This document shows positions 58,647-62,789 of a stretch of DNA of 64,000 nt, in pieces (position 1 is the stretch's first letter; each line of letters opens with the position of its first letter). The translations under genes were made by a program, and so were the position numbers. The DNA comes from Dysgonamonadaceae bacterium (GTDB lineage: Bacteria > Bacteroidota > Bacteroidia > Bacteroidales > Azobacteroidaceae). Where the stretch lies: the NCBI GenBank assembly GCA_031272085.1, contig JAISUN010000003.1, positions 1 through 64,000 on the forward strand. Direction: 5' to 3'. The notes beneath the pieces are model-generated. The model saw only the letters and a list, made by a program, of their open reading frames with translations, did not search any database and was not told the DNA's origin.

Positions 58647-60452
58647 TCATACAGCCCGATTTTTTCTGTTCGATGAAGATGCGTCGGCGCGTAAGTTGGC
58701 TTCAAACAGGTACTTGCCTGCATAATCGTAATTGATTCGCCCGAAACCGGAAAGCATTGCGAGTTGGCGGGTATATCCGCTGTTGGTCTGGCTTGCCTCG
58801 CTTCCGGAATTCATATCGGTAAGTTCGTTATTCGGAAAACTCTTGCGGGTAGCAATATTTTCAATGTAATTGAACTTTTCGGTATGCCAGCCGAGCAAAA
58901 CTTTCAGTCCGTGAACGCCGAAATGCTTGTCGTAGTTGAGCAGGGCGTCGAAATTCGTCCGGTCGTCGAGATAATAGCGCTCGTCGAGCGAGTTCGGGCC
59001 GTGATACTTGTTCGGGTTGTACTGAATATCCTTCATAAAGTATTTGTAATGCTGGACATTGGAAACATACGAGCCTTGCAGAGTGGCTTTCAGCCCGTCG
59101 AACAGTTTGACGTCGGCAGCCAGAAGGCCGGTAAATTTCTGATTGTTGCGGTCAACCGTTTCATCGAGGTCTAACCACGCAATCGGGTTTCCGTCGGAAA
59201 CAGTTCCGTAGGTTCCATCGGCATAACGCGCTGTAATCCAGGGAGCAATGATGTTCAACTGCCGGATAATCTGGTCGGAACTTCCGCCGGCGTAACTGCT
59301 CGTCGCGTCGCGGTAATCGTTCTTTATGAAACCCATATTCATCCTGACGTCAAGCCGGCTCGTGAGGTTCATATCGAGATTTATGCGCCCGTTGAACTGG
59401 CGGCGGTCGCTATTCGGCAAGATGCCTTCTTCGTTCAGGAATCCGGCCGAAGCCATATATTTTGCTCTGCCGCTTCCGCCGTTGACATTGACGTTATGCT
59501 GGTGTTGAGCGCCTGTCCGATACGCCAGCGCGTACCAGTCGGTATTCGGATGGCCGTAGGGGTCGGAGCCGTCCTGAAATTTTTTCAGGTCGTCGTCGGA
59601 AAACCGCGCCGGTTTGTCGCCGTCTTCGGCCAGAGCCTGATTCAGGAGGCGGGCGTAATCGTAGGACGAGAGCCGTTCAATCATCTGCGTGGGCTTCTGG
59701 AAACCGTAATATCCCCGGTATGTAATAACCGGCTTATCGGCTCCTTTCCCGCGTTTTGTGGTAATCAGTATTACCCCGTTTGCCGCTTTTGAACCGTAGA
59801 TTGCGGCCGAAGCGGCGTCTTTCAATACCGAAACGGACTCAATGTCGTTGGGGTCGATTGAGTTCAGTTCGCCGGTTTCGATTCCGTCAACAAGCACATA
59901 AGGGCTTGCATATCCGGTGTTTAATGTTCCTACGCCGCGGACGCGGATAGTGGCTCCGTCCTGACCGGGGCGGCCCTCACCCGCCATCGAAGCAACGCCG
60001 GCCATCAAGCCCTGCAAGGCGGTTGAAACGTTTTGGATAGGACGCGATTCGAGTTCGCTGCCGCTGATTTGCGCAACCGAGCCGGTCAAATTGACCTTCT
60101 GCTGTGTGCCGTAGCCGACAACAATCACTTCGTCGAGAAGTTTTGAATCTTCTTCCAAAACAATGTTCATTTCAGCCGTTGCAGGCAATTCCTGACTTAC
60201 ATAGCCGATGTAGGAAACTACTAAGGTTTTGCCCCGCTCGACGCGAAAAGTAAAACGCCCGTTAATGTCGGTCGTAGCGCCGTTTTGTGTTCCTTTTTCA
60301 AGGATGTTGGCGCCCATAATCTCATCCCCGCTCCGGTCTTTTACTGTTCCGCTAACTGTAATCTGTTGAGCGAAAGCCGATAAGCCGAATGTCAGAAACA
60401 AAACTGCAAAAACGCCGGCAAAAAATTGTGATTTTTTTGTTAGATTCGTCAT
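58647..60452 (-). pseudogene. C-terminally truncated SusC/RagA-family TonB-linked outer membrane protein (~600 aa)
   Basis: Start MTNLTKKSQFFAGVFAVLFLTFGLSAFAQ; QITVSGTVKDRSGDEIMGANILEKG; DEVIVVGYGTQQKVNLTGSV; SVLKDAASAAIYGSKAANGVILITTKRGKG; ends abruptly ...YLFEANLRADASSSNRKNRAV-stop; the distal barrel is missing and no SusD follows. Confidence 0.8.
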
Positions 60453-60549: not shown

Positions 60550-60604
60550 CCAGCGTAGCGCGTGAAGATGGTTATTTTTTGCCACCAGCGTAGCGCGTGA
60601 AGAT
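60550..60604. repeat. Direct repeat, 20 bp CCAGCGTAGCGCGTGAAGAT x2
   Basis: Identical copies at 60550-60569 and 60585-60604. Confidence 0.9.
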
Positions 60605-60638
60605 AATTTTTTAAAAACAAAAAAAATAAACCAATAAA

Positions 60639-60716
60639 TAAACCAAAACTGCAATGAGGCGTTCATTCAGGGCAAGCGATTATGTCTTACGCTGACTCAT
60701 TGCAGTAATTGGTTTA
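60639..60716 (-). ncRNA. Inverted repeat / terminator-like hairpin (part of candidate structured RNA)
   Basis: TAAACCAAAACTGCAATGAG (60639-60658) and CTCATTGCAGTAATTGGTTTA (60696-60716) are near-perfect reverse complements; on the minus strand a T-rich tract TTTATTGGTTTATTTTTTTTGTTTTT follows. Confidence 0.6.
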
Positions 60717-60798
60717 ATGGCGACGGTTTTTTAAAGTTAATAATATAATTGTTTGAAAATCCATTTATACGCTAATAAAACCGTGATTTTTTCCGGCA

Positions 60799-60826
60799 CA
60801 AATGTAAGTGAATTTATTTATTCAAA
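60799..60826 (-). promoter_or_regulatory. Bacteroidota-type promoter P2 upstream of truncated SusC
   Basis: Minus-strand TACATTTG (60799-60806) and TTTG (60823-60826), 16-nt spacing. Confidence 0.5.
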
Positions 60827-60885
60827 CAAGGAATTTTTAAACTTTTTTTGAAAATTTTTTTATTTTTTTCAGCAAATTTTATTTA

Positions 60886-60968
60886 AAAAAGAAAAGGTTG
60901 TCATCCCGACAACCAATCTTCATTGTTAACCTTAAATCTAATACCATGAAAAACACGATGCAAAGGTA
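60886..60968 (-). ncRNA. Candidate ~70-nt small RNA with own promoter and terminator
   Basis: Minus strand TACCTTTG (60961-60968), then ~40 nt, then hairpin GGTTGTC-GGGAT-GACAACC (60896-60914) followed by TTTTCTTTTTT. Confidence 0.55.
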
Positions 60969-61041
60969 ATACATTTATGTTATAAAACATAATTTTTCGG
61001 CATAAAATTTAAAAGTTTAACAATTTTTAACACTTTGAGGC

Positions 61042-62232
61042 CTATTCAATTTCTAAAACAAGGCCTTTAAGATACTCACTTTCAGGATGATACAAATTTA
61101 TTGGATGGTCGGCCGCCTGTGTGAGTTGATGAAGAATTTTTACCCGTTTTCCGGTTTGAGCGGCTGCGCTGAAAACGGCAAGCCGGAAATTTTCGCGGCT
61201 AACGGCCTGCGAACAGGAAAAAGTGAAGATAATTCCGCCCGGCTGAATCTTGCGGATAGCCGCCGCATTCAGTTTCCGGTAGCCGACAAGCGCATTTTTC
61301 AGTGCGCTCTGATGCTTGGCGAAGGCCGGCGGGTCGAGGACAATCAGGTCGTAATCTCCGCCGCCCTGTTCCAAAAAGCGGAAAGCGTCGTCGGTAAAAG
61401 CCGTATGGCGGGCGTCGTTTCCGAAATTCAGGCCGACATTTTCGCGCGTCAGGTCGATGGCTTTGGCCGAACTGTCCACCGAATGAACAAGAGCGGCGCC
61501 GCCGCGCAGAGCAAAACACGAAAACCCGCCTGTGTAGCAGAAAAGGTTCAGCACGTGCCGGTTTTCCGAAAATTTTTCGAGCAGCGAACGGTTGTCGCGC
61601 TGGTCAACAAAAAAACCTGTTTTTTGGCCTTTCAGCCAGTCGATTTTGAATTTCAGGCCGTTTTCCAAAGCAACGCCCGAAACCTCGGAACCACCGAAAA
61701 GATAGCCGTTTTCCGGTTCCAGAGCGGCTTTATAGGGCAAAGTGCCTTCCGATTTGTAGAAAATATTTTTCAGTTTGCCGCCGACTACTGCCTGCAATGC
61801 CTCCGCAATCTCGCGGCGGACAAGGTGCATTCCTACGGAATGAGCCTGCACAACGGCGGTATCGGAATAAAAATCAATAATTAGGCCGGGCAAAAAATCG
61901 CCTTCGCCGTGGACTAATCGGAAAGCCGTATTTTTTTGAGTATCAAACAGTTTCAATCGCATCCGCAAATTCCATGCCGATTCGATGCGGCGGCGCCAAA
62001 AATCGGCGTCAATCGCTTCATCCTCAAAAGTCAGGATTCGGACGGCTATCGAGCCTATCTGACAGTGTCCGCGGGCAAGAAACTCGCCACGGCTGCCGAT
62101 TACGTCCACCAAATCGCCCTCTTCGGGATTGCCTTCTGCACGGCTGATTGCGCCGGAAAAAATCCACGGATGAAAGCGTTTGAGCGACTCTTCTTTCCCC
62201 TGTTTCAGATAGATTCGTTTATTTAAAGACAT
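61042..62232 (-). CDS. Class I SAM-dependent rRNA methyltransferase (RlmI/PUA type)
   Basis: HPWIFSGAISRAEGNPEEGDLVDV (PUA), GFFVDQRDNRSLL, VLNLFCYTGGFSCFA, YDLIVLDPPAFAKHQSA. Start MSLNKRIYLKQGKE. Confidence 0.93.
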   Translation of the reverse strand: MSLNKRIYLKQGKEESLKRFHPWIFSGAISRAEGNPEEGDLVDVIGSRGEFLARGHCQIGSIAVRILTFEDEAIDADFWRRRIESAWNLRMRLKLFDTQKNTAFRLVHGEGDFLPGLIIDFYSDTAVVQAHSVGMHLVRREIAEALQAVVGGKLKNIFYKSEGTLPYKAALEPENGYLFGGSEVSGVALENGLKFKIDWLKGQKTGFFVDQRDNRSLLEKFSENRHVLNLFCYTGGFSCFALRGGAALVHSVDSSAKAIDLTRENVGLNFGNDARHTAFTDDAFRFLEQGGGDYDLIVLDPPAFAKHQSALKNALVGYRKLNAAAIRKIQPGGIIFTFSCSQAVSRENFRLAVFSAAAQTGKRVKILHQLTQAADHPINLYHPESEYLKGLVLEIE

Positions 62233-62789
62233 AGTTTTTTGTATATTTTCAGGCAGGCCCATGCGTCTAATGCGGCGTAATGTTGCTGCGCCGCGGTCAG
62301 AGTTGAAGCCTCCCAGTTGGTAAGTCGTTGGTTTTTAGATATTTTCTTATGAAAAAGCAGAGCGTAGATTTTTTGCAGGCTCATATCTTCGATTCCGTAT
62401 TTTGGAGCAATTTTTTGCAAATCGATAAATCCGCGAGGCTCGAAATTCAGGTTTTTTTCGAGGCTATGGAAGTCGTCTTTCAGCGAAAGTCCGATTTTCA
62501 TAATGTCGGGATTTGAAAGCAGTTCGATAAGATGGGGAAAATATCCGGTAATATTGAGGCGGAAAAGGCAGCAAAAATCTTCGCTTGCGAGTTGAATCAG
62601 AGCCACATTATTGGTATTTCCCTTGCGGAACGAGGGGCGGGTTTCGGTGTCGAAACCGAGAATTTTATTTTCCGAAAGCCGCTCGACGGCCTTTTTTGAA
62701 CTCTCAAAATCGTTGGCGACAACTATCGTGCCGCGGAACTCTTCCCTTTCATAAGAGTTTAATTCTTCCTTGGTTATGCTTCTTCCCAT
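62223..62789 (-). CDS. 3'-5' exonuclease domain protein (RNase D/DEDD-like)
   Basis: KILGFDTETRPSF, VALIQLASEDFCCLF, HYAALDAWACLKIYKKL. Confidence 0.9.
   Translation of the reverse strand: MGRSITKEELNSYEREEFRGTIVVANDFESSKKAVERLSENKILGFDTETRPSFRKGNTNNVALIQLASEDFCCLFRLNITGYFPHLIELLSNPDIMKIGLSLKDDFHSLEKNLNFEPRGFIDLQKIAPKYGIEDMSLQKIYALLFHKKISKNQRLTNWEASTLTAAQQHYAALDAWACLKIYKKLCL

Follow-up and report, generated by a model that had tools for sequence, protein, structure and literature searches.

A FopS small RNA gene behind rlmI in a Dysgonamonadaceae bacterium, with a candidate Cur operator in its promoter

In the window, a stretch of 64,000 nucleotides from a Dysgonamonadaceae bacterium, we describe a small RNA that, judged from its sequence, is real and is a member of the already known FopS family. 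Its promoter carries an exact match to the published consensus site of the CRP-family regulator Cur (BT4338). Cur would control this FopS, probably by repression, a sign that we take from the geometry of the site and from one published expression trend. We think it fairly likely that this rlmI-linked FopS acts in trans under a repressing Cur, and that a brake on susC translation would be released when sugar is scarce. The features of the locus are given in Table 1.

Table 1. Features of the FopS locus and its neighbours, in window positions.
Feature	Position	Strand	Evidence
FopS sRNA gene, type A, rlmI-linked, ~73 nt	60884..60956	-	Full-length RF04319 match; orthologues elsewhere in the genus and in further Bacteroidales
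Conserved single-stranded 5' seed (R1/R1' of FopS)	60923..60956	-	Near-invariant in 133 distinct sequences
Intrinsic terminator hairpin GGTTGTC-GGGAT-GACAACC	60896..60914	-	Sequence; hairpin recovered by a terminator scan
-7 box TACCTTTG (TAnnTTTG)	60961..60968	-	Seen in nearly all FopS loci
Candidate Cur operator TATGTTTTATAACATA, an exact match to the Cur/BT4338 consensus TATGTTnTAnAACATA; 7 nt separate it from the -7 box, and it covers the place expected for the -33 element	60976..60991	-	
rlmI-like 23S rRNA methyltransferase, conserved upstream neighbour, 85 nt gap to FopS	61042..62262	-	
Truncated susC ORF, a neighbour specific to this genome and outside the unit	58647..60452	-	TIGR04056 1-569 of 981

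The minus strand at 60884-60956 (GTGTTTTTCATGGTATTAGATTTAAGGTTAACAATGAAGATTGGTTGTCGGGATGACAACCTTTTCTTTTTTA, downstream of TACCTTTG) matches the RF04319 model, BTncRNA_FopS, over its full length (cmscan, model positions 1-71 of 71) with 81.2 bits against a cut-off of 56 and an E-value of 2.3e-10. FopS was described in 2025 in Bacteroides thetaiotaomicron, which has 14 paralogues, each laid out as a single-stranded 5' seed and a terminator hairpin (PMC11697453). The BTnc231 model scores far under its own cut-off at this locus. GibS (RF04182), which is like FopS in its R1 5' sequence and unlike it in having a second seed R2 and the promoter motif PM2, was rejected as the identity of the RNA at 44.1 bits against a gathering score of 115. 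The terminator hairpin is followed by TTTTCTTTTTT / TTTTCTTTTT, reaching ~60885. The promoter box, non-coding leader, hairpin and tail that the initial annotation had read here all lie where it put them, and they make up a complete stand-alone sRNA gene. The interval it drew has the right elements and omits the most informative one, the upstream palindrome at 60976-60991.

The predicted centroid fold leaves the seed mostly unpaired. The folding energy of the RNA is unexceptional (z -1.1, not significant), and so the case for the gene rests on conservation. Across 133 distinct FopS sequences the letters of the hairpin vary widely (GGTTGTC/GACAACC, GGCTGTCT/AGATAGCC, GGGAATTC/GAATTCCC) while the pairing is kept. 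Of the covariation that had been proposed as a check, RNAalifold on these sequences shows a little: on account of gaps it retained no more than 4 pairs, which do have compensatory changes. In this alignment the 5' part of FopS is conserved in sequence and the 3' part in structure.

FopS occurs in nearly all of the same-genus genomes searched, frequently as one type A and one type B copy, and in an order-wide sample it is present in 56 of 247 genomes, representing 38 of 165 genera. By these model matches, its range is wider than the published Bacteroidaceae. Our own genome bin (2.6-Mb, 82% complete) has two copies, the rlmI-linked type A copy of Table 1 and a type B copy on contig C68 (L002 1501-1581, G000:C68:18034-18114). 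Type B has an altered seed, CATAATAGTATT, and a different hairpin, and is orthologous across the genus; in our own genome it adjoins an acetate-kinase-like gene. The Cur palindrome is always absent from type B. Further copies (L326-L329) are found in the Bacteroides xylanisolvens phage BX-TP2, there with a plain promoter without the dyad, and in large circular plasmid records of Bacteroides, Parabacteroides and Phocaeicola.

The promoter is of the canonical sigma-ABfr type, with TACCTTTG correctly spaced and the palindrome overlying the -33 element. The palindrome, TATGTTTTATAACATA, fits the published Cur/BT4338 consensus wwwTATGTTnTAnAACATAwww exactly (PMC3878776, PMC6989115). Exact sites of this kind number 40 in 25 same-genus genomes (~64 Mb), with 0-4 per genome, and in 15 of the 20 FopS-A copies such a site stands 19-20 nt before the start of the RNA, where ~0.0003 would be expected. 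For the dyad counts we used loci fetched with RF04319 only, without the motif (112 non-B and 20 type B FopS); allowing up to two mismatches, the dyad precedes 72 of the 112 non-B genes (42 of them exactly) versus 0/20 of type B, at a rate of 1.4% in shuffled upstream regions, and outside the family of our genome it is upstream of FopS in 41 of 78 cases and absent in 37, Bacteroides and Mediterranea records being among the carriers, all of these being raw sequence counts that include related copies and are not independent events. The consensus also precedes EF-G2 (fusA2) in seven same-genus genomes, our own and six others, and EF-G2 is the strongest published Cur target. We rejected PM2, the GibS promoter motif, as the identity of the palindrome, as PM2 has its elements centred on -10 and -30, unlike the dyad, whose centre is near -28. 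The paper on B. thetaiotaomicron FopS does not identify the transcriptional regulator, finds the paralogues not strongly sub-diversified, and brings in Cur only when colonization phenotypes are compared (PMC11697453). A full-text literature search for FopS together with Cur, which extended neither to subscription journals nor to preprints, returned nothing, not even that paper, and is a weak negative. The conserved Cur-consensus site in the FopS promoter looks new, and it suggests a direct link from sugar supply to FopS.

Cur is reported to act as an activator and as a repressor (PMC6989115, PMC3878776), and the sign of its action on FopS can be approached from the position of the site. In 294 genomes, 37 exact Cur sites have a TAnnTTTG box at a distance of 5-12 nt, and 28 of them are FopS promoters. 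A second class forms a sharp peak at 31-33 nt, with 14 sites, 11 of them at exactly 32; the non-FopS sites within the genus likewise cluster 32-33 nt from the -7 box. The FopS-type site is 7-9 nt from the -7 box, centred near -28, and overlies the -33 element. (In genome G077, two FopS genes have their Cur site 40-41 nt away.) Because the site covers the -33 element at this short distance instead of the usual 32 nt, repression is favoured, and the ~3-fold lower FopS level on high-mannose glycan versus glucose agrees with it (PMC11697453). The opposite sign, in which sugar starvation would turn FopS on through Cur and stop the translation of unneeded susC mRNAs, seems unlikely to us. Cur does activate another sRNA, MasB (PMC10994844), FopS is said to act under limited substrates (PMC11697453), and the palindrome takes the place of a good -33 box, so that an activator might be needed. 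Against activation stand the same two observations, a site that is centred near -28 and overlaps the -33 element, in contrast to the 32-nt class of other promoters, and the lower level on glycan than on glucose.

A CRP-family orthologue is present in most same-genus genomes, and we presume it to be orthologous to BT4338. A search for a Cur-like gene in our own bin, 82% complete, did not find one; the sole cNMP-binding protein of the bin was rejected as Cur, since its nearest solved structures differ from those of the genus-wide CRP group. As a check for autoregulation, sites near the CRP gene were found at 7 of 17 loci, each only with 2 mismatches. We consider it improbable that the protein binding the palindrome is not Cur but a different regulator that recognizes similar DNA, such as a CRP-family bile or membrane-stress regulator. 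The bile-salt response of FopS does run through an unknown regulator (PMC11697453), and similar sites are possible among CRP-family proteins, but the palindrome agrees with the published Cur consensus at every position, and the same genomes have it before EF-G2/fusA2. The dyad and the CRP-family gene were also followed in two particular genomes. A reduced genome of 1.1 Mb (G003) has a diverged FopS (L094, G003:C5:402925-402996) with a dyad upstream that has 1 mismatch, and also encodes a member of the genus-wide CRP-family group; a search for SusC in it found none, although FopS is kept, and FopS may therefore have further targets besides susC, or be a relic in this genome. In genome G023, FopS, the upstream dyad and the genus-wide CRP-family gene are all three absent.

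In B. thetaiotaomicron, FopS RNAs are trans-acting repressors whose seed pairs near the susC start codon and blocks SusC translation, and the RRM protein RbpB relieves this repression (PMC11697453). Here, the 34-nt seed is the reverse complement of a start-codon region including the ATG (...ACCATGAAAAACAC). Our target prediction covered 30 susC genes of our own genome and the genes of the window, with susC start sites picked by a simple signal-peptide rule. In this prediction the real seed pairs with the 30 susC start regions better than scrambled seeds do (0/200 as good) and better than with window genes (p = 0.016). The mean alignment score between seed and susC has its maximum exactly at the start-codon register, 9.24 versus a background of -1.1 (sd 2.15). 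Ordinary genes show the same register more weakly, which means that part of the signal comes from the generic AT-rich start region. For 10 susC genes from two other genomes the register is the same, with 19 of 500 scrambles as good. Predicted pairing in our own genome reaches ~30 nt, and for the susC genes on contigs C25 and C67 it runs over nearly the whole seed. The susC adjacent to FopS in the window ranks in the middle. Our genome also encodes an RRM protein that matches NCBIfam Rbp_regulator.

The initial annotation had placed the RNA upstream of a susC-like gene, and saw in it a possible regulatory sRNA associated with a polysaccharide utilization locus (PUL). The kind of molecule was well chosen, as FopS shows; the place was not, the conserved neighbour being rlmI, upstream. 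A complete rlmI lies immediately upstream of FopS in 18 same-genus loci. When loci were fetched with the RlmI protein alone, FopS was 79-186 nt downstream in seven other Bacteroidales records, including Bacteroides and Fermentimonas, and ~1.5 kb downstream of rlmI in two more. The susC, described as ~440 bp away on the same strand, is present, with its start at 60452, ~430 nt past the FopS terminator, but the ORF is truncated; it is without the C-terminal ~40% and abuts prmA, and may be either what is left of a PUL or an artefact of the assembly. tblastn for SusC at the other FopS loci examined (mostly ~1.5 kb on each side, some ended by a contig) found none. The expectation that the core string would recur beside other susC loci thus fails, and the string is instead strongly conserved as that of a trans-acting family. 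With no SusC at the other loci examined, the linkage to rlmI kept, and the susC truncated, the adjacency of FopS and susC is incidental; nor is this susC among the best predicted targets, and the proposed functional tie to it is not supported. An attenuated leader or PUL-specific RNA acting in cis on this susC, to which the common strand, the ~430 nt distance and a promoter-like TACATTTG with a strong hairpin in between might point, is very improbable given that FopS has its own promoter and terminator, that rlmI is its conserved neighbour and none of the other FopS loci examined showed a SusC, and that the susC beside it here is a truncated ORF with only moderate pairing. Just as improbable is a 3'-UTR-derived RNA processed out of the rlmI mRNA: FopS begins just 85 nt past rlmI on the same strand and 1 of the 14 FopS RNAs in B. 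thetaiotaomicron comes from a 3'-UTR (PMC11697453), but nearly all loci, even those without rlmI, have the conserved -7 box at a fixed distance to the 5' end.

Between FopS and susC we observe two other elements. At 60600-60790 on the minus strand there is an unusually stable hairpin (-43.9 kcal/mol, z -4.55), CTGCAATGAG...CTCATTGCAG, followed by a T-rich tract and preceded near 60800 by the promoter-like TACATTTG; it is single copy within the window and might represent another short RNA, part of a leader, or a mobile repeat. At 60550-60612, two 28-nt direct repeats (CCAGCGTAGCGCGTGAAGAT...) stand 35 nt apart with a G+C content far above the surroundings, and the repeat core is found in no locus besides those overlapping the site.

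This FopS resembles those of B. thetaiotaomicron (PMC11697453) in its full-length model match, 5' seed, terminator hairpin, sigma-ABfr-type -7 box and multiple copies, in a seed complementary to susC start regions, and in an RbpB-like protein encoded in the genome. It differs in having 2 copies rather than 14, in lying behind rlmI, in an exact Cur consensus that is not described for FopS, and in being known only from sequence. Carried over from B. thetaiotaomicron, the mechanism would have the 5' seed pair with susC mRNAs around their start codon and block their translation, with the RbpB-like RRM protein counteracting FopS. We infer that the master regulator Cur binds the operator in the FopS promoter. 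When simple sugars are scarce, Cur would repress FopS and the brake on susC translation would be lifted; when they are present, Cur would be silenced and FopS made. Type B FopS, having no operator, would be independent of Cur. If so, FopS would join the sRNA MasB in the Cur regulon (PMC10994844), a different RNA with target BT_1675 for which activation by Cur is shown, where for FopS we predict repression.

In E. coli, CRP represses Spot 42 (spf), which is itself an sRNA repressor of genes for secondary carbon use. The predicted logic here is the same, a CRP-family regulator repressing an sRNA that represses carbon-use genes; the RNA sequence is unrelated, there is no Hfq, the promoter and regulator are those of Bacteroidota, and our case is a prediction. 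More tentatively, at a confidence that we would put just short of even, Cur may directly repress the conserved rlmI-linked FopS, starvation thereby both activating sugar-use genes and lifting the SusC brake, as an independent Bacteroidota counterpart of CRP and Spot 42 with Cur-controlled and Cur-independent paralogues side by side. An operator present on one FopS class and lacking on another points to a candidate regulator and to a functional split among paralogues. If the proposal is true, simple sugars could silence glycan importers post-transcriptionally.
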